From Ferroplasma acidiphilum (lineage in GTDB: Archaea > Thermoplasmatota > Thermoplasmata > Thermoplasmatales > Thermoplasmataceae): a stretch of 64,000 nucleotides of DNA. The stretch lies in NCBI RefSeq assembly GCF_002078355.1, contig NZ_CP015363.1, positions 806,001 to 870,000 on the forward strand, given 5' to 3'. Under the pieces are notes generated by a model. The model ran no database searches. It worked only from the letters and a program-made list of their open reading frames with translations, and was not told the origin of the DNA. This document shows positions 5,278 through 49,717 of the stretch, piece after piece. The stretch's first letter is position 1. Each line of letters opens with the position of its first letter. A program made the position numbers and the translations under genes.

Positions 5278-7062
5278 ATGAAAATTATGGATGCAGAAAA
5301 AGCCTACAGTATTAGACTTGCCGGAGAGATTGTAACAGAGGGTGATAAAACATTTTTCACTGAAAAATACATAAAGGGCACTAAATATTCATCGAATATT
5401 TATTCCATTGTTTCTAAAAATATAATGCAGGTTACAAATGGTGGCGCTGAAAAAATGCCATTTTATAAAGACGGCGTTCTATATTATATCAAATACAGTG
5501 AGGAAACTGAAACTTTAATGAAATTAAAATCCCTGTCAGAGCCTGAAATAATATGCACTTTTTACAAAATTAAAAAATATTTAATCTCAGAACATGGAAT
5601 TTTTGTTATAGCATTGGAAAAAACGGATGATAGTAAACCTTTTGCAACTACAAGAATTAAGTACAGGTTTAACGGGAGAGGGTTGCTCAGATCAAAGTAC
5701 AGCCTTTATGCTGTAGATAAAGCTCCCCATAAAATATATTCTGGAGATTTTGATGTTGAAGATATACAGTGCAATAATTCAAGATTTATTATTCAAACGA
5801 CTGAAGAAAGTGATGATGATGGGATGTCTAACCTGTATGAAATAAATAAAGATGGCAATAAAATCAAAAAAATTACCGGAAAGCCCGGTGTAATACATGG
5901 GTATTCAATTTCAGATAAGGGGCGTATAGCCGTTTCTATGCACGAAAATTTGAATCCGTGGGAAGTAAACAGGATAGCATACCCTGAAGAGGGAAAATAT
6001 CTACTGGTAGGAAAAGATAGCAATGATTCAATTTTGACTGACCTATTTTTTACGCCTTCTTATAAAATGAAATATAACGGTGATGTATTATATGCCATAG
6101 CTCAGGAAGGTTCTTCATCCAGCATATACGCTATAGAAGGAGAGAAGGTAACAAAGAGAACTGAGGTAAGGGGCAAACTGATAGATTTTGATGTTGCTGG
6201 CGTTTCAGGGAAGGAAAAGATATCATATATCTATTCAACCCCGGAGCATCCTTCAATGGTGGTTAATGGCGATAGCTACAACATAAATGAAGAAGTTGCA
6301 GGGATTGCACCGTATGTAGAGGGAATGGATAATGGAGAATACTTCTTTATGCTGAAAGACCCTGCTGCACCAACGCTGGTTTTCATTCACGGCGGTCCTC
6401 AAACTGCATATGGTTACCTGTATTATATAGAATTCCAATACTTTTACCAGAATGGGTATAATATACTTTATACAAATCCTCCTGGAAGTACCGGATACGG
6501 CCAGCCATATGAAGAAGAATGTGTGGGTGACTGGGGAAACAAAGATTTTGAATATATTAAAAAAGCCATGAAAAGCGTTATGGAAAAATATAAAGTTGTA
6601 GACAATTTCGCCGTTACAGGTGGTTCATATGGTGGATTCATGACTAACTGGATAGTGACACACAGCAATATATTCAAGTGCGGGATTTCTGAAAGGAGCA
6701 TTTCCAATATGTTAAGCATGGTAGGAACCAGTGACATAGGTTACTGGTTCAATACTTTGCAGTTAAAGATAACAGATCCTTACAGCGCTGAGGGAATTAA
6801 AAAGCTAATGGAATATTCTCCGATCAGCTATATTAAAAATGTAAAAACGCCAGTTATGCTAATAACCGGAGAAGAGGATTACAGGTGCCCGATTGAACAG
6901 GCAGAGCAGTTTTATGTTGCCCTGAAGCTTAACAATGTAGATGCAGAACTGGTAAGGTATCCTGGAGACAACCATGAACATGCCAGATCAGGAGTTCCAG
7001 AAAATATGAAGGACAGGCTTACAAGAAAACTTGCCTGGTTTGATAAATATTTAAAAAATTAA
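5278..7062 (+). CDS. S9 family serine peptidase (prolyl oligopeptidase / acylaminoacyl-peptidase type)
   Basis: The 594-aa protein has an N-terminal beta-propeller-like half and a C-terminal alpha/beta hydrolase domain. The hydrolase carries the oxyanion region FIHGGPQTAYG, the nucleophile motif GGSYGG with Ser450, Asp534 in GEEDYRC and His566 in GDNHEHA. Members cleave short peptides or remove acylated N-terminal residues, usually in the cytoplasm, and are common in peptide-using Thermoplasmatales. No signal peptide is seen. The ATG at 5278 follows a TATA-like element without a Shine-Dalgarno, so the mRNA is probably leaderless. The gene stands alone and converges with the MFS gene at 7080. 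Confidence 0.92.
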   Translation: MKIMDAEKAYSIRLAGEIVTEGDKTFFTEKYIKGTKYSSNIYSIVSKNIMQVTNGGAEKMPFYKDGVLYYIKYSEETETLMKLKSLSEPEIICTFYKIKKYLISEHGIFVIALEKTDDSKPFATTRIKYRFNGRGLLRSKYSLYAVDKAPHKIYSGDFDVEDIQCNNSRFIIQTTEESDDDGMSNLYEINKDGNKIKKITGKPGVIHGYSISDKGRIAVSMHENLNPWEVNRIAYPEEGKYLLVGKDSNDSILTDLFFTPSYKMKYNGDVLYAIAQEGSSSSIYAIEGEKVTKRTEVRGKLIDFDVAGVSGKEKISYIYSTPEHPSMVVNGDSYNINEEVAGIAPYVEGMDNGEYFFMLKDPAAPTLVFIHGGPQTAYGYLYYIEFQYFYQNGYNILYTNPPGSTGYGQPYEEECVGDWGNKDFEYIKKAMKSVMEKYKVVDNFAVTGGSYGGFMTNWIVTHSNIFKCGISERSISNMLSMVGTSDIGYWFNTLQLKITDPYSAEGIKKLMEYSPISYIKNVKTPVMLITGEEDYRCPIEQAEQFYVALKLNNVDAELVRYPGDNHEHARSGVPENMKDRLTRKLAWFDKYLKN

Positions 7063-7079
7063 TTTTAAAGTTATAAAAT

Positions 7080-8297
7080 TTATAAACCCTCTTTAATCTG
7101 TTCCTTTGCAACCTCTTTCGTTGATTTCGGGAATTTCATGAACAGGGTTATTATAAGTGCTATTGCTGCCGGTATGATCATAAAATAAAGCATTCCAGAT
7201 CTGAATGTGGTTACAGTAATGTATGAAGCAAGCAGCAGTGGGCCTATTATTCCGCCTATGTTGAAAAACATAAGGATTGCTCCACTTGCGCTCCCAACTG
7301 CCTCATCTTTTACCATATCCTGTCCGGAGGCTGGAGTTAGCACTGAAAATATTGACCATCCGGTTCCAAACATAATAGTAAGGAAAATAAATGCTATATA
7401 ATTCTTAGGGGCATAAGTTATGGTCACAATCGCAATAAATACAAGCAGAATTCCAATTACCAGTATTGGTTTTCTTCCTATCTTATCGCTTGCAAATCCA
7501 GCCGGAAGCCCGAAAATTATTCCACCAACACCCAGCATTGATATTAAAACTGCTCCCTCGGCACTGGAAAATTTGATAATAGTCAACAGGAATTCTGAAT
7601 AATAGCCGAGCATATTTAGAAGAGTAAAGCCGAAGAAAAACATAGCCAGTATGGGAAATATAGTATATTTATTAAGGGCAAGTTTCAATGGATTCTTCGC
7701 TTTTGTTTCTTTTTTGAAAACAGATGGTATAATCATGAAGAATATGATTGCTACTATAAAGCCAAGAACTCCAGATATCAGGAATGGTAGATGATAATCA
7801 GGCAGGAATGGCAGGAAAATATAGGGAGCCGCTGTAGTTCCTACTCCGGCAAGTACGCCCCATAGCATCGTTCCGCTTCCCCTAAATTCCGGATTTGCAT
7901 CGCCCAGGACACCAATTGAAGATGCTTGAAACATCCCGACACCAAAACCTACTATTAATCTGGATAGCAAGACTTCAATAGCCGTAGTAGAGTAACCGGT
8001 AGCTATAGTAAAGATAGAGAATATTAATATGGAAACTGTAACCGTGATTTTTGGTGAAAAACGATCGAACAGAAATCCCCCTATTAAACTAAATATGGCT
8101 ATTCCAGCAGCGTATCCACTTATTAATATTCCTAAAAAATACAGAGGCAGGTGTACATTACTAATTATATATGGTGCAGCATATGTGTAGGCTGACCCAT
8201 CAAAATCCACAATCAAAGCAGGCAACGCTCCTGCTACAAAAATAACAAACAGGCCTAATCTACTTTTAATTCCTATTTCTCTGGCTGTTAATGACAC
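7080..8297 (-). CDS. MFS transporter (12-TM)
   Basis: The 405-aa polytopic protein has FSLIGGFLFDRFSPK and the second-half counterpart FGLPAGFASDKIGRKPILV, the two MFS A-type motifs of a 12-helix permease. RLIVGFGVGMFQASS is also characteristic. The overall pattern resembles metabolite or aromatic-acid carriers, but no substrate can be assigned from sequence alone. The gene is convergent with the S9 peptidase, 18 bp away, and appears monocistronic. Confidence 0.88.
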   Translation of the reverse strand: MSLTAREIGIKSRLGLFVIFVAGALPALIVDFDGSAYTYAAPYIISNVHLPLYFLGILISGYAAGIAIFSLIGGFLFDRFSPKITVTVSILIFSIFTIATGYSTTAIEVLLSRLIVGFGVGMFQASSIGVLGDANPEFRGSGTMLWGVLAGVGTTAAPYIFLPFLPDYHLPFLISGVLGFIVAIIFFMIIPSVFKKETKAKNPLKLALNKYTIFPILAMFFFGFTLLNMLGYYSEFLLTIIKFSSAEGAVLISMLGVGGIIFGLPAGFASDKIGRKPILVIGILLVFIAIVTITYAPKNYIAFIFLTIMFGTGWSIFSVLTPASGQDMVKDEAVGSASGAILMFFNIGGIIGPLLLASYITVTTFRSGMLYFMIIPAAIALIITLFMKFPKSTKEVAKEQIKEGL

Positions 8298-8602
8298 TTT
8301 CTAGCATGGTTCTATACTATTTAAGTGTTTTTAAGGTTTTTATATTCCTATCTTTCCATAACTATTTCCTATATGCACTATTAAAAAATATATAATAGAG
8401 CGATTTCAAGATATTATATATTTATCTCAATATTAAGGTTATTTCGCTGCCTGAGGGTTAACTGTATAATGTAGTTATAACCTATCTTCTCTGATTTTTT
8501 AGGGTTTCATTAATTCCCTTAAGATATGGTTTAAACATCCTTGTCTAAAGATTTTCACCACAGTTCTATTATGGCATTATTCATGATCCCCTCGCAAGGA
8601 AG

Positions 8603-8622
8603 CCTATGACTTCAGTCATAGG
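8603..8622. repeat. IS200/IS605-type terminal hairpin
   Basis: A perfect stem-loop, CCTATGAC-ttca-GTCATAGG, lies 45 bp before the TnpB frame. Subterminal hairpins of this form mark the ends of IS200/IS605 elements, which are recognised as folded single strands. It could be the left end of this element or a relic of another copy. Confidence 0.5.
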
Positions 8623-8666
8623 AGGGATTGCGACAATTTCATATATTGAATTTATATTTGAATAAT

Positions 8667-9781
8667 GTGCTTAAAACCCTTCAAATTAAATTGCTTCCAG
8701 ACGATAATCAGAAAAACATACTCCTTAGCACATTCAAAAAATCCAATGAAGCATGTAATTTTGTCTCTAAAATAGCTGGGATAATAAAATATATAATAAA
8801 ATACCCCTCCAGAAATTAGTATATTATGATATTAGAAACAAATTCGGATTATCAGCACAGTTAACCATAAGAGTTATTGCAAAGGTTGTGGACACTTATT
8901 TAACTGATAGATCAGTATTCCATGAGTTCCGTGAATACGGTTCAATAGTATATGACCAGAGAGTTATGAGCTTTAAAGGCATGGATGAAGTAAGCCTTAA
9001 CACTATCAATGGAAGAATAAAAATACTCATAACCATTGGAAAATACGGTGAAATACCATTCAATAGAATGAGGGGCCAATGTGACCTTGTAAGGAGGCAT
9101 AAGCTCTTCTATCTAATGGTAAGTGTTGATGTACCCGAACAACCATCTATAAAACCTAAGAATATCATAGGGGTAGATATGGGTATAGTAAACATCTCCG
9201 TTGATTCCACCGGAAAATACTATTCCGGAGAAAAAGTAAAGGAAGTAAGGGGACACAATTTAGATCTACGCTCCAGATTGCAATCAGTAAATACCAGATC
9301 AGCGAAAAGGCATCTTAAGAAGCTTTCAGGAAAGGAGCATAGGTTTGCTACAAATACCAACCATATAATATCTAAAAATATTGTAAAGAAAGCTAAGGGC
9401 ACCTCTTCCGCTATTGCCATTGAAGATCTCAGTGGTATAAGAATGAGGGAAACTGTTAAGAAAGGAAATAGATATATCCATAATTCATGGGCTTTCTACC
9501 AGCTCAGGCTGTTTATTGAGTACAAAGCTATGGAAGCAGGCATTCCCGTTATTGTTAGAGATCCACACAACACAAGCAGGGAATGCCCCAACTGCCATAC
9601 TATTTCTAAAAAGAACCGGCCTGAGAGGTCTATATTTAAATGCATTTCCTGTGGAGTAAAGGGAGAAGCAGATTATATTGCTTCTCTTAATATCAGGAAC
9701 AGGGCTGTTGCCAACCAGCCTATTGTAGCGGGTGATTTTTTTGTCCATTGTGACAGCCCAGTTGCAAGCTCACTGCTTTAG
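8667..9781 (+). pseudogene. tnpB: Frameshifted IS605-type TnpB (RNA-guided nuclease family)
   Basis: The N-terminal part (GTG at 8667, LKTLQIKLLPDDNQ) is in one frame and stops at 8819. The rest continues in another frame from about 8804 to 9781, so a small indel near 8795-8805 breaks the gene. The C-terminal part retains RuvC-like residues (numbering from the ATG at 8888): D97 in GVDMGIVN, E179 in AIEDLSGIR and D262 in ADYIASLNI. It also has a zinc ribbon C233/C236/C252/C255. TnpB proteins are guided by an RNA from the element's right end. No TnpA transposase is present, so this copy is probably immobile and non-functional. Confidence 0.85.
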
Positions 9782-11690
9782 CTGTGGGTAGTTGACCGAA
9801 CACAAGTTTTTTTCTGGCGTCATTTCTTTCCTGGTGTGTGGAGTCGCTTGTTAATGCGATGGATTGTATTCCAGATTCCTGGAAATAGTGGGCCATAAAC
9901 TTTGCATGGGCTTTTGTAACGCAAAATCCTAGGGCTTTCATGCTGTCAATATCTGTGCTATATTCCCGTACAGCGTCTATGATTAATTTAGCTCTTTCTC
10001 TGGCTCCACTATTCTTAACGTATAAGTTCTCCAGTTCAGATACATCATATGAGCCCTTTTTCCATGCTATGTTTTCAAGGTCAACAGAGTCTGTTATTCC
10101 GAAATACTGGAATGGGCAGAGAAGATGCTGATCTATAGCCTCGGGAAGCCTTATTTCTGATGTAATATGATTATTGAAATATTTCAGGATATCCCTTCCA
10201 TCCATCCTTTCTGGAGTGGCAGTAAGTCCAAGCATAATTTCTGGATTGAAATGATTCAGGAGATTTGCATAGGATTTAGCTGCGGCATGGTGGAATTCAT
10301 CAATAATAATAAAATCATAATAATGCTTATCCAGTTGTAGATCTGGTCTTATAGATTCAAATGTCTGAATTGACATGAAGAGATGTTCATCTGATAATGG
10401 TTTGTAGTTCCCAACATATAAATTTCCAAATTCAGGATCTTTCAGCACATTTCTGAAGCAGGCAATGCTTTGCTTGAGGATTTCCTCCCGATGGGCTATG
10501 AAGAGAAGGCGATTGGAGCTATCAGGATGTTCTCTAACAAATTGTTTATAATCAAATGCTGAAATGATGGTTTTTCCAGTACCTGTAGCTGAAACAACAA
10601 GATTGTGGTAATTTCCCCGTAATTGCCTGTCTGCCCTCAATTCTTCCAGGATTTTTGATTGATATGGGTAGGGATGAAAATCAAAAGAATATTCATTGCC
10701 GCTATTGTTAATTGAAGATTCATTTTTCAGGGCTTTGTTTAATCGAGCCAGTTGATCCGGCGAGAAACTTTCAAACGCTTCAGAACTCCAGTATGAATCA
10801 AAAGTTGCATCTATTTTATCAAAAACATCCTGCATGTCAATCTTTGTTATCTTCAAGTTCCATTCAAGTCCACTGGATATCGCTGCACCTGAGAGATTCG
10901 AAGAGCCAACATAAGCTGTTGAATATCCTGTGTTTCTTAGGAATATATATGTTTTCGCATGCATCCTTGTATTTTTTGTATCGTATGATATCTTTATCTC
11001 TGTATTGGTCAATTTGGCTAATTCTTCAATAGCTTTAATATCCGTTACTCCCATGTAAGTGGTTGTTATGACCCTTAATTTCCCACCATTATCTGTAAAT
11101 TCCTTCAACTTTTTTATTATTAACCTTAATCCAGTCCACTTTATGAATGATACCAGCATATCTACCTGATCAGATGTTTGTATCTCTTTCTGCAACTCAT
11201 AATAAAATTGTGGCTCATTTGATGAACCGGTGAAAAGGGAACTGTATGCAACAGATGTGTCCGGCCTGATTGTTAAATCGATTTTTTTATTTTCATTATT
11301 TTTAGGATATGCGGAAAGCAAAATCTTTGGGGGTGATTCTATATTATCACAATTTTGTTCTGTCTTGCTGCTTATTTTGTCCAGAGGATTATTGATATGA
11401 ATTTTCTCTTTGGATGTACTTTCTCTCCCATCGCTGTTTATTTTATCTAAAAGATTATTGACGAAATCCAGACGGTCTGAAACAGGTAGACGTTTATCTT
11501 CCATAATGTCCAGCCTATGTTTCGTTCTTTCACCAACATATGCAGCTAATATCCGTGATAGTTGATCATTAACAAGTGCCTTTTCCAGTGATTCAATTTC
11601 TGTGTTATTGTTTAGCTCATTTCTCAGGCAAAAATTTATCAGTTTTTCATACAATCCCTTTTCAAGCATAACTTTATTGCATTTTTCCAA
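9720..11690 (-). CDS. PLD-nuclease/SF2-helicase fusion, C-terminus lost to TnpB insertion
   Basis: The 656-aa frame has three parts. An N-terminal helical region (1-135) comes first. A phospholipase D-like domain follows, with H244/K246 and GSSN at 262-265. The third part is an SF2 helicase with GTGKT (370-374), DEFH (464-467), TATP (490-493) and the start of the second RecA domain. This is the order of the SSL2-like helicases that usually continue into a DUF3427 region. After KKLVFGQ, near 9798, the frame enters the IS605 end and stops, so motif VI and the C-terminus are missing. Relatives are linked to DNA repair or defence. Loss of motif VI should abolish helicase activity. Confidence 0.75.
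   Translation of the reverse strand: MEKCNKVMLEKGLYEKLINFCLRNELNNNTEIESLEKALVNDQLSRILAAYVGERTKHRLDIMEDKRLPVSDRLDFVNNLLDKINSDGRESTSKEKIHINNPLDKISSKTEQNCDNIESPPKILLSAYPKNNENKKIDLTIRPDTSVAYSSLFTGSSNEPQFYYELQKEIQTSDQVDMLVSFIKWTGLRLIIKKLKEFTDNGGKLRVITTTYMGVTDIKAIEELAKLTNTEIKISYDTKNTRMHAKTYIFLRNTGYSTAYVGSSNLSGAAISSGLEWNLKITKIDMQDVFDKIDATFDSYWSSEAFESFSPDQLARLNKALKNESSINNSGNEYSFDFHPYPYQSKILEELRADRQLRGNYHNLVVSATGTGKTIISAFDYKQFVREHPDSSNRLLFIAHREEILKQSIACFRNVLKDPEFGNLYVGNYKPLSDEHLFMSIQTFESIRPDLQLDKHYYDFIIIDEFHHAAAKSYANLLNHFNPEIMLGLTATPERMDGRDILKYFNNHITSEIRLPEAIDQHLLCPFQYFGITDSVDLENIAWKKGSYDVSELENLYVKNSGARERAKLIIDAVREYSTDIDSMKALGFCVTKAHAKFMAHYFQESGIQSIALTSDSTHQERNDARKKLVFGQLPTAKAVSLQLGCHNGQKNHPLQ
9769..9788. 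repeat. Right-end hairpin of the IS605-type element
   Basis: Stem CTCAC/GTGGG with an inner GC/GC pair overlaps the tnpB stop codon and is followed by gtagttgac, a typical IS605 right end. In active relatives this region is also the 3' part of the guide RNA scaffold. The host helicase sequence resumes immediately afterwards. Confidence 0.55.
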
Positions 11691-46007: not shown

Positions 46008-46115
46008 GTAAAATGTTGCAGTATGAATAAAAGGATAGGAGCTCTTTGCATTAATATCAAAGTCATAGACTGATATTCCAAGTGAACAATATTACAGGAT
46101 AGAAAAATATGTGAA
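46008..46115 (-). pseudogene. Decayed DUF2079 gene fragment
   Basis: About 108 bp match, with many substitutions, positions 42060-42165 of the DUF2079 gene (shared stretches include tgcattaat and attccaagtgaac/gttcccagcgaat-type blocks). That region codes for the LGTSALDLGINAQSLYTFI motif. No frame remains open. It marks a lost gene at the left border of the ubiquitin-like operon. Confidence 0.5.
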
Positions 46116-46226
46116 ATGCTATTATTAAGTTTCCTGTTTAACTGGCGCACACCATAAACAAACTTTGACACTTTCTGTTCATATATAGATAGAGTTTAGA
46201 ACTATAAATCCCAATATAAAAGAAAA

Positions 46227-46266
46227 CTTTTATATATAGTTAATATTACAATATAAAAATAGGAGG
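46227..46266 (+). promoter_or_regulatory. TATA box and strong Shine-Dalgarno of the ubiquitin-like operon
   Basis: CTTTTATATATAG at 46227-46239 is a good archaeal TATA box. AGGAGG at 46261-46266 lies 8 nt before the ATG at 46275. A canonical Shine-Dalgarno is unusual here, as most genes in the window appear leaderless, which suggests the operon was acquired from elsewhere. Confidence 0.55.
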
Positions 46267-46274
46267 ATAATAAT

Positions 46275-46523
46275 ATGGAGAGAGAAGAAAAGAAATTTGA
46301 AATTATAGTGAATGGGAAACCTAAACCCTGGCAAGAAATCACTATTAACTACGCACAGATAGTTAGTTTGGCATTTCCACAGACAACTAATCCTACTGAT
46401 GTATTTACAGTACAATACAGTCATGGTACAAAGGAGCAATCTCGGGGAACTATGGTTGAAGGTCAGTCAGTAACAATTAAAAGTGGTATGATTTTTGATG
46501 TCACCAGAACTTTTAAGTCATAG
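46275..46523 (+). CDS. Ubiquitin-like protein of the multiubiquitin family (single domain)
   Basis: The 82-aa protein begins with charged residues and then has VNGKPKPWQEITINYAQIV, LAFPQTTNPTDVFTVQYSHG and GQSVTIKSGMIFDVTRTFKS. This is the conserved beta-grasp pattern of the multiubiquitin family, which is related to ubiquitin. Many relatives carry several such domains in tandem; here there is one. No C-terminal Gly-Gly is present; the chain ends in FKS. It is followed by an E1-like gene that overlaps it by 26 nt and a DUF6527 gene, an arrangement known for prokaryotic ubiquitin-like conjugation. It is probably the modifier. Confidence 0.85.
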   Translation: MEREEKKFEIIVNGKPKPWQEITINYAQIVSLAFPQTTNPTDVFTVQYSHGTKEQSRGTMVEGQSVTIKSGMIFDVTRTFKS

Positions 46524-47682
46524 CGCTGACCTGAAGCAACTTAGAGACGAGGGCTATGAAATAAGTATTGTAAATGCTTATCTTTTAGTCAAGCACGTAC
46601 CGTATGTAGACAGTACGAAGAACATTGCATATGGAACACTTATTTCGACTCTTGATATAGCTGGCGATAAAACTGTAAAACCAAAAAGTCATGTTGCCCT
46701 CTGGGCAGGGTCTTATCCTTGCAATTCAGAGGGGATACAACTTTCAATGCTAGTAAACGACCCCAACAAGAATGAGAAGATATGTGACGGTCTTTATGCA
46801 ACTCTTTCATTCTCACAGAAACTGCGCCCTGAGGGCTATAATGACTACTATGAAAAAGTTACAACCTATATTAAAATACTTGAGGGTTATGCTCACGTTA
46901 TTGATCCAAAAGCGACAGCCAGGACTTTTCCAGTAATTCCATCTGATAAAGATACCTCAGTTTTCTGCTATATAGATACTGCAACTAGCCGTGCTGGTAT
47001 TTCTGCAGCAAATGAAAAGTTGAAAACTGGTAAAATAGCTATCGTAGGATTAGGTGGTACCGGTTCTTACGTTCTGGATTTTATAGCCAAAACCCCTGTA
47101 GAGGAGATTCACCTCTTCGATGGAGATGAGTTCCTTCAACATAACGCCTTCCGATCTCCGGGTGCGCCCGCTATTGATGACCTCAAACAAAGGCAACATA
47201 AAGTTGACCGGTTTGCTGAAGTATATTCTAAGATGCGTCGTAATATATTTCCACATCCACAATACCTCGATGAAAATAATGTAAGTGAGCTAAAAGATAT
47301 GAATTTTGTATTTCTTTGTATGGATGGACAAAATAAGAAAGCTATAATTGATTTTTTACTTGAAAATAAAATACCTTTCATAGACACGGGTATTGATATA
47401 TATAATACCGATGGCGTTCTGGGTGGTAATGCACGGGTTACAACGTGTACCCCTGATTTTAATGGGCACATAACAAAGCGAATCGACTTCAAGGGAGATG
47501 GAAACAATGAATATGAAAGCAACATACAAATAGCGGAGATTAATGCTCTGAACGCAGCCTTTGCAGTTATTAAATGGAAGAAATTGTCAGGATTTTATTT
47601 TGATAGGGAAAATGAGTACAACACAACATATGGTATTATTACGAATAGTATAGATAACGATGAGCATAATGAAAAAAATTAG
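46498..47682 (+). CDS. E1-like ThiF/UBA adenylyltransferase with N-terminal DUF6791 region
   Basis: The preferred start is the ATG at 46498 (MSPELLSHSADLKQLRDEGY), 394 aa; the frame also opens one codon earlier at a TTG. Residues 1-150 fit DUF6791, which precedes the E1 fold in these systems. The adenylation domain has IVGLGGTGSYVLDF (184-197), LFDGDEFLQHNAFR (207-220) with acidic, Asn and Arg residues, and FLCMDGQNKK (273-282). Cys318 in RVTTCTP is a candidate thioester cysteine (numbering from the TTG). It would adenylate the C-terminus of the ubiquitin-like protein. It overlaps both neighbours, so the three are translated together. Confidence 0.85.
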   Translation: MSPELLSHSADLKQLRDEGYEISIVNAYLLVKHVPYVDSTKNIAYGTLISTLDIAGDKTVKPKSHVALWAGSYPCNSEGIQLSMLVNDPNKNEKICDGLYATLSFSQKLRPEGYNDYYEKVTTYIKILEGYAHVIDPKATARTFPVIPSDKDTSVFCYIDTATSRAGISAANEKLKTGKIAIVGLGGTGSYVLDFIAKTPVEEIHLFDGDEFLQHNAFRSPGAPAIDDLKQRQHKVDRFAEVYSKMRRNIFPHPQYLDENNVSELKDMNFVFLCMDGQNKKAIIDFLLENKIPFIDTGIDIYNTDGVLGGNARVTTCTPDFNGHITKRIDFKGDGNNEYESNIQIAEINALNAAFAVIKWKKLSGFYFDRENEYNTTYGIITNSIDNDEHNEKN

Positions 47683-48058
47683 GATAATCAGGCCTGAATT
47701 TGTTGAATTTATTCCAGATGATATAAAAGAGGGTGTATTGTATATATCCATTCGCTATAACACCGCTACACATAGGTGCCCTTCTGGCTGCGGTGAAATT
47801 GTAGTAACTCCTATTACACCAACAGACTGGACTCTTATTTGGAATGGTGAATCTGTCTCGCTTTACCCATCGATAGGCAATTGGAGCCTACCGTGCGAAT
47901 CACATTACTGGATACGTGAGAACAGAATAGTATGGGCCAGGAAATGGAATATACAAGAAATCGAATTTGCAAAAGATATTGATGATAGCAACAAGGCGTA
48001 TTATTTTAAACATAAGAAGAAAAATTTAGATAAGGTTGATAAAAATAGATTAAAGTAA
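47669..48058 (+). CDS. DUF6527 zinc protein of the ubiquitin-like operon
   Basis: The likely start is the ATG at 47669 (MKKIRIIRPEFVEFIPDDI), 129 aa; a second ATG lies at 47660. It has HRCPSGCGEIVVTPITPTDW and SIGNWSLPCESHYWIRENR. C40, C44, C79 and H82 (counted from 47660) form a plausible zinc site, as in DUF6527. The family regularly accompanies multiubiquitin and DUF6791-ThiF genes. Proposed roles include processing or removal of the modifier, but that is inference here. It overlaps the end of the E1 gene by 14 nt. Confidence 0.82.
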   Translation: MKKIRIIRPEFVEFIPDDIKEGVLYISIRYNTATHRCPSGCGEIVVTPITPTDWTLIWNGESVSLYPSIGNWSLPCESHYWIRENRIVWARKWNIQEIEFAKDIDDSNKAYYFKHKKKNLDKVDKNRLK

Positions 48059-48464
48059 TGCTGAACCGTAGAAACATCCAGTAGAACTAAATTTCCAGTT
48101 TGTCACGCCAAGCTTACGGACTTGCTTTATGCCATAATCCTATAAAATATTGTTATACAGACTATAATCGTTGTGTAAATAATGGATTGACTTTTAGAAC
48201 ATCTCAGGGTTTTGTAAATAATCATTTAATGCGCAAATTTGGTAATTTATTTATTTTTTAATCGGCAGCTCCAAAGACTATACAAACAATAAGGCCAATA
48301 GTAATATACCGCAAGATATTATGCAATTCAAGTTGACAGACTGAAGCATATCATTTTACAGAGATATACAGTGTACTGAAGTATTACAGGAGGAAAGGGG
48401 AACTTAAAGGTATATTAAATACTGGTTAACTCAAATGGCTAAACTTTTAAAGAAATACATATAA
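48059..48464. other. Non-coding interval between ubiquitin-like operon and IS
   Basis: About 400 bp with no supported gene, no clear terminator and no recognisable IS end. Short frames only. Confidence 0.4.
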
Positions 48465-48471
48465 TTATTAA

Positions 48472-49717
48472 CTCGAGTTTTGCGTTTTGGTAAATTTTAT
48501 CTATATTTTCACTATTTAATATTATGATCGATATACCTGTTGTAGATTCACCTGATGTATTGAATAGACTCCTTTTAGAATTCAGGCCATTATTTGGCAG
48601 GAGGCAGTTCAGGCAATTCTGCAGGTACATAGTCTCTGGAATAGCATCTTCAACAAGGTCATCAGCACATTTAAATGGAATATTTGTAGAACATACAAAC
48701 CAGTCAAACCTTAACAGGTTTTTAAGGAATATACCTGCTGATGGCATATTCAATATATCATGTTCCTTAATCAACAGGAATTGTTCTGGTCCTGTTCTCT
48801 CCCTGGATGACACAATACTCCAGAGGAATGGAAAGCATATAGATGGAGCACAGTGGATCTACGACCATTCACAGGGAAAAACTGTATATGGTATGCAATA
48901 CACTACCTCTGTAATATCAGGCAATGAAGGGATATTCCCATTATCCATGGAACTTAAAACAGATGATTCGAAGATAGACCTGCAGATAAATACAATAAAA
49001 AAAGCTATGGGTGCAGGATTGAGGTTTAGTACAGTTGTATTTGATTCCTGGTACTTTTCATCAAAACTGGTAAAATTCCTTGAAAGTATGGGAAAAGATT
49101 ACGTAAGTGAAGCAAAGTCAAACAGGACAGTATGCATTGATGGGAAATGGATCAGGCTGAGGGATTATGCAAATACACTTGATCTGAAATCTATGAAATC
49201 ATACACAGTAAATGGAAAAACATATTTCATGAAGGCAATAACCACCAGAATGAAAAATGCAGGTATTGTAAAAGTAATAGTATCAAGGAGAATAAACTCT
49301 TTAAAGTTCTTTGTTACGAACAGGACAGACTGGAAAGTTAAAACAATAATAGGGAAATACCTGAGAAGATGGGACATAGAAGTATTCCATGAGGAATTAA
49401 AGCAGGACGGGCTAAAGCATCTCTATCAGAGGAAACATGCCACTTTGCTTGGTACGGCGAAGATGAGCCTTCTGGGTGAGCTGCTTCTCGAAATCTCTGC
49501 AATCAATTCCATGGGGAACCATTTAAAAATCAGGAAAGGAACACCTGAACCCAGGCATAAGCAAGTGGCTATAAGCATTTTAACAGATCTGTTCAAAGCA
49601 ATAGAGAATAAAGGGAGATCATTCCTGGATGCTATACTGAAGTCAATTGAAGAGCCATACAGGTCAACAAGAAATATTTATGGAGGTGCAATTAATAGTT
49701 AAATCGCAAAACTCGAG
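48472..49717 (+). mobile_element. Intact IS4/IS701-like element with 7-bp target duplication
   Basis: The ends are CTCGAGTTTTGCG at 48472-48484 and its inverse CGCAAAACTCGAG ending at 49717. The direct repeat TTATTAA lies at 48465-48471 and 49718-49724. Intact ends, duplication and transposase indicate a recent insertion. A degenerate relative lies at 29208-30538. Confidence 0.85.
48524..49702 (+). CDS. IS4/IS701-like DDE transposase
   Basis: The 392-aa protein has LSLDDTILQRNGKHIDGAQ and TVVFDSWYFSSKL with the two Asp residues, and YLRRWDIEVFHEELKQDG with the Glu. Spacing and motif order match the frameshifted copy at 29225-30473. The assignment to IS701 rather than ISH3 or IS4 is not certain from sequence inspection. 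It is full length and its element is flanked by perfect repeats, so it is probably active. Confidence 0.85.
   Translation: MIDIPVVDSPDVLNRLLLEFRPLFGRRQFRQFCRYIVSGIASSTRSSAHLNGIFVEHTNQSNLNRFLRNIPADGIFNISCSLINRNCSGPVLSLDDTILQRNGKHIDGAQWIYDHSQGKTVYGMQYTTSVISGNEGIFPLSMELKTDDSKIDLQINTIKKAMGAGLRFSTVVFDSWYFSSKLVKFLESMGKDYVSEAKSNRTVCIDGKWIRLRDYANTLDLKSMKSYTVNGKTYFMKAITTRMKNAGIVKVIVSRRINSLKFFVTNRTDWKVKTIIGKYLRRWDIEVFHEELKQDGLKHLYQRKHATLLGTAKMSLLGELLLEISAINSMGNHLKIRKGTPEPRHKQVAISILTDLFKAIENKGRSFLDAILKSIEEPYRSTRNIYGGAINS

Follow-up and report, generated by a model that had tools for sequence, protein, structure and literature searches.

Archaea are known to carry Gly-Gly based systems, SAMP/Urm1, in which a ubiquitin-like protein (Ubl) is associated with an E1-like enzyme of the UbaA type. 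In proteobacteria, cyanobacteria and actinobacteria, a different type of Ubl operon, type 6e, was described in 2006 by Iyer, Burroughs and Aravind (PMC1779556). These operons encode a Ubl made of one to three repeats, a zinc-finger-like protein, sometimes an RWD-like inactive E2, and an E1 that carries either a JAB domain or, in a subset, an uncharacterised N-terminal domain (PMC1779556).

The Bub operons are related to this type. In Citrobacter, according to Pfam, the Bub operon encodes a Multi_ubiq domain fused to a Prok-E2_E domain, then a protein combining Prok-JAB and ThiF, then a DUF6527 protein. As far as the PDB entries 9ea4, 9ea5, 9ea8, 9eae and 9eav describe them, BubA, BubB and BubCD are the products of the first two of these genes. 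Another solved member of the multiubiquitin family, the ZDHYS365 multi-ubiquitin domain protein (PDB 9cd2), is a multi-domain protein of 222 residues, and Ubls from DUF6791-type operons are among its best matches on plasmids.

The Ferroplasma operon and its closest described systems

The window analysed here, a stretch of 64,000 nucleotides, corresponds to positions 806001-870000 of the single 1.83-Mb contig that constitutes the genome of the acidophilic archaeon Ferroplasma acidiphilum. Between 46275 and 48058, it carries three intact ORFs located on the same strand (+) and whose frames overlap. The first one (46275-46523) encodes an 82-aa Ubl of the multiubiquitin family (Pfam PF14452, 1.4e-15) that consists of one domain and ends with RTFKS, i.e. 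with a Ser and without Gly-Gly. It matches the last domain of 9cd2 (1.2e-10), which also ends with Lys-Ser. The second gene (46498-47682), which overlaps the first by 26 nt, encodes an E1-like enzyme of 394 aa from its ATG (NCBIfam PRK06153.1-4, 1.3e-155). This enzyme includes a DUF6791 domain (aa 10-161, 46525-46980; 6e-52) and a ThiF adenylation domain match that carries a GLGGTGS motif (aa 171-303, 47008-47406; 1.6e-13). The third gene (47669-48058) encodes a DUF6527 protein of 129 aa (PF20137, 2e-23) with zinc-binding-like residues C37, C41, C76 and H79. All these Pfam scores exceed the curated cut-offs, and the profile searches therefore bear out the three family assignments that had been proposed by a sequence-only reading of this DNA. 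That reading was also right in reporting that the Ubl has only one domain and no Gly-Gly, and that an E2 gene is missing: among the ORFs of the operon, Pfam identifies neither a separate nor a fused E2 or Prok-E2_E (BubB). The strong Shine-Dalgarno that it had pointed out is also real (AGGAGG, 46261-46266, + strand, 8 nt 5' of the Ubl ATG), and such a motif is found at the first start of only 4 of the 47 long ORFs of the window according to a crude count. Multi_ubiq and DUF6791 each occur only once in the genome, which also encodes a second ThiF enzyme and one JAB protein, both distant from the operon.

The three-gene order, the short overlap between the Ubl and E1 genes and the C-terminal Ser of the Ubl are those of the DUF6791 (PRK06153) branch of type 6e. 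Like the non-JAB subset of this type, the operon combines a Ubl from a family with one to three repeats, an E1 with an uncharacterised N-terminal domain, a small protein with a zinc motif and a sporadic distribution. It differs by its archaeal host and by its zinc signature, C-x3-C-x34-C-x2-H, whereas the signature printed for type 6e is C-x3-C-x(35-38)-H-x2-C (PMC1779556).

The operon also shares with Bub the order Ubl, E1, DUF6527, the Ubl tail devoid of Gly-Gly and the E1 fold. Indeed, the E1 fold expected for the ThiF protein is recovered in the model (pLDDT 89), whose best solved fold match is BubCD, and the profile of the DUF6791-ThiF E1 family likewise ranks BubCD first among solved structures. 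However, DUF6791 replaces the JAB domain of BubCD and BubB is absent. As it thus lacks two of the components that define Bub, the Ferroplasma operon is considered here as a cousin of Bub that belongs to the DUF6791 branch of type 6e rather than to Bub proper, and it probably works like Bub.

The resemblance to the SAMP/Urm1 systems is limited to the presence of an archaeal Ubl and an E1-like enzyme, the Ferroplasma E1 giving only a marginal match to the UbaA model (0.012, NCBIfam). A sulfur carrier and its activating enzyme, involved in a ThiS/MoaD-like metabolism, would fit the ThiF fold. This is nevertheless a very improbable explanation, as the Ubl lacks a C-terminal Gly, the distant second ThiF enzyme can serve metabolism and the distribution is sporadic and plasmid-borne.

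Relatives, archaeal distribution and acquisition

A pattern-based scan of genome contigs, whose counts are therefore lower bounds, identified relatives of the E1 (41–59% identity) at at least 41 other loci from many phyla; all but one of the 41 are bacterial. Wherever the contig extends far enough, the order Ubl, E1, DUF6527 is conserved, and most loci also display the 26-nt overlap between the Ubl and E1 genes. The operon is thus, as proposed initially, of a kind known from bacteria. The C-terminal residue is a Ser in 40 out of 40 Ubls, none of which ends with Gly-Gly, and about a third of them (approximately 15 of 40) have a single domain. As the final codons of the Ubl gene lie within the E1 gene, the conservation of the Ser may partly reflect the overlap.

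Relatives of the E1 are also carried by plasmids (116 of 72,556 records, 108 of them with a match spanning at least 80% of the protein), including plasmids from Acidithiobacillus ferrooxidans and Acidiphilium, and many are annotated as multiubiquitin, ThiF or DUF6527. No match was found in phage records, and a pattern-based scan of IMG/VR gave three hits. The features that looked special in Ferroplasma are therefore family-wide: members of this family normally lack both a Gly-Gly and an E2 gene, and a Ubl with only one domain is nothing unusual among them. The same operon is found in bacterial genomes and plasmids, and its type has been described since 2006 (PMC1779556). The proposal of an undescribed minimal variant was consequently abandoned.

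What is new is the occurrence of the family in archaea, as a small and sparse branch that forms one clade and spans two phyla. DUF6791 was found in 1 of 390 Thermoplasmatota genomes, being absent from the 389 others, including one from the same species, and in 3 of 349 genomes belonging to the same phylum as a Nitrososphaerota MAG (L032), with all three operon genes there. In the tree, the four archaeal E1s group into a single clade (100/100) amid bacterial sequences; two of them had first been reassembled from frameshifted pieces. This nesting and the absence of the operon from the other Thermoplasmatota genomes give good support to its acquisition by transfer, as the sequence-only reading had suggested. 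The base composition carries no sign of transfer, the GC3 (0.29–0.33) being host-like (window median 0.32). A bacterial family of Ubl operons therefore now extends to archaea of two phyla.

The insertion site could be delimited by comparison with another genome of the same species (G062), in which the flanks match those of the window and the slot is filled by other genes. The gene debris reported at the left border is real: a scrap at 46072-46122 (81% identity over 52 bp to the G062 locus) resembles the terminal part of a membrane-protein gene located at the same place in G062. The module therefore extends at most from 46123 to 48234, and the slot is a variable cargo site. The content of the G062 slot (L056 = G062 C1:1910000-1926500, reverse-complement 7022-9837) consists of two ORFs of 411 and 460 aa without any Pfam or PADLOC match.

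An intact-looking IS encoding a DDE transposase is also present near the operon (48472-49717), with perfect 13-bp ends (CTCGAGTTTTGCG) and a 7-bp target duplication, TTATTAA. However, it lies in native DNA, 413 bp past the operon, and the TTATTAA is single in G062, which thus shows the empty site. It is therefore a separate insertion, unrelated to the operon; its role as border mark, evidence of transfer or transfer vehicle is rejected.

The location of the operon in a variable slot with debris would also fit the idea that, in this strain, it is only the remnant of a transfer and has lost its function. In addition, the DUF6527 protein carries Ser39 (codon 47783-47785) where the 41 relatives first aligned all have a Cys, and a frameshift, due to decay or sequencing error, interrupts the E1 gene of two archaeal relatives (L060 3995-5208 and L032 5974-7187). 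Such a loss of function is rather unlikely, considering the three open frames, the strong start signal and the retention of the invariant E1 residues.

Proposed chemistry of the E1 and DUF6791

The explanation that we favour, with about an even chance of being right, is that the operon is a mobile Ubl conjugation module from the DUF6791 branch of type 6e/Bub-related operons involved in a stress or antiviral response. The ThiF domain would adenylate the C-terminus of the Ubl, a Ser instead of a Gly. Within the same polypeptide, the Ubl would then be handed to an E2-like DUF6791 domain and attached to a target selected with the possible help of the DUF6527 zinc protein. Candidate acceptors are Tyr339 in the E1 part and Ser106 or Cys75 in DUF6791. 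This proposal relies on the profiles, on the gene order shared with bacteria, on the best match to BubCD, and on the nucleotide-site residues, which the alignment shows to be conserved across E1 relatives. It also relies on the invariant Tyr339 (codon 47512-47514), which hhalign aligns with Tyr370 of BubCD, a residue mutated in 9eav according to the entry title and which we infer to be catalytic. Further arguments come from the E2-like matches of DUF6791 and from the fact that no Prok-E2_E was found in two genomes carrying a DUF6791 operon.

Canonical E1-E2 features are absent: the Ubl has no terminal Gly, and the alignment of relatives reveals that the ThiF part contains no conserved Cys that could be catalytic. 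These traits would also be compatible with an E1 that does no more than modify the tail of the Ubl (nucleotidylation, as performed by MccB on the microcin C peptide, is one possibility) or with a Ubl that acts non-covalently. MccB and PaaA are indeed among the E1 fold matches; the E1 is however nearer to BubCD than to MccB, making this alternative quite unlikely.

Various data suggest that DUF6791 might be a built-in E2. Modelled alone (pLDDT 86), the domain is predicted to consist of a helix, four strands, a hairpin and a helix. In the fold search, E2 enzymes such as UBE2G2, Cdc34, UBE2S, UBE2H and Atg10 account for most of the full-length matches within the top 50, every match having E > 0.1. 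The DUF6791 profile is colinear with 15 Prok-E2_E sequences, with a score of 19.6 (12.4 when reversed) that is reached in 2 of 300 column shuffles, for an hhalign probability of only 2.5%. Two residues of the domain, His65 and Ser106, are invariant, and in this weak alignment Ser106 faces the invariant Ser of the WSRH motif of Prok-E2_E. Cys75, located after strand 4, is near-invariant, 3 of 39 relatives having a Tyr or an Arg instead, which counts, with the E-values and the hhalign probability, against the conjugation module. Furthermore, the comparison of the profile with PDB chains gave no credible match, and hhalign detected no signal with a single BubB or with an approximate human UBE2D2 sequence. 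DUF6791 therefore resembles E2s weakly yet consistently, and the earlier suggestion that it substitutes for an E2 is plausible, the profile link being weak and no fold match significant.

DUF6791 could instead be a processing or deconjugating domain that replaces JAB, the E1 part alone transferring the Ubl. The domain does occupy the JAB position on the E1, and Iyer et al. ventured such a role, as a guess, for the N-terminal domain (PMC1779556). This is unlikely, since DUF6791 has no JAB similarity by profile, and its top 50 fold matches include many E2s and no JAB.

A tentative proposal, possible but on balance doubtful, is that DUF6791 is a diverged E2 embedded in the E1, that an ester relay leads from Tyr339 to Ser106 or Cys75 with a Ubl devoid of Gly-Gly, and that the whole is a transferable antiviral or stress system of archaea. 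In any case, these three proteins offer a compact system to ask whether one protein can combine E1 and E2 chemistry without a Gly-Gly tail.

Neighbouring genes and possible purpose

The neighbours of the relatives favour a role in stress response or defence, which for the Ferroplasma operon would be the most likely purpose. Among 146 genes flanking relatives, counted without a matched background, 16 match IrrE-like M78 peptidases and 17 HTH_3, and PADLOC identifies 10 CapP and 6 CapH at E <= 1e-10. CapH and CapP respond to DNA damage and control adjacent operons, including Bub (PMC13373217). Single parts of Hachiman and Gabija are also found among the flanking genes, and one archaeal relative (L061) is bordered by HsdR on one side, with HamB nearby on the other. 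The archaeal clade and the sparse distribution also count in favour of the proposed mobile conjugation module. Against it, no regulator gene adjoins the Ferroplasma operon, and phage protection by Bub operons has not been demonstrated (PMC13373217).

Other genes overlap the start of the Ubl gene in some relatives. In L032 (5447-5782) and L060 (3471-3803), a gene encoding 110–111 aa, winged-helix-like by eye and without any Pfam match for the L060 copy, is a possible regulator. In two Sphingomonas relatives (L028 and L029, 1775-5179), the product of the overlapping gene is 1134 aa long and contains an HExxH motif. An operon from the Synechocystis plasmid pSYSX is adjoined by IrrE and HTH genes.
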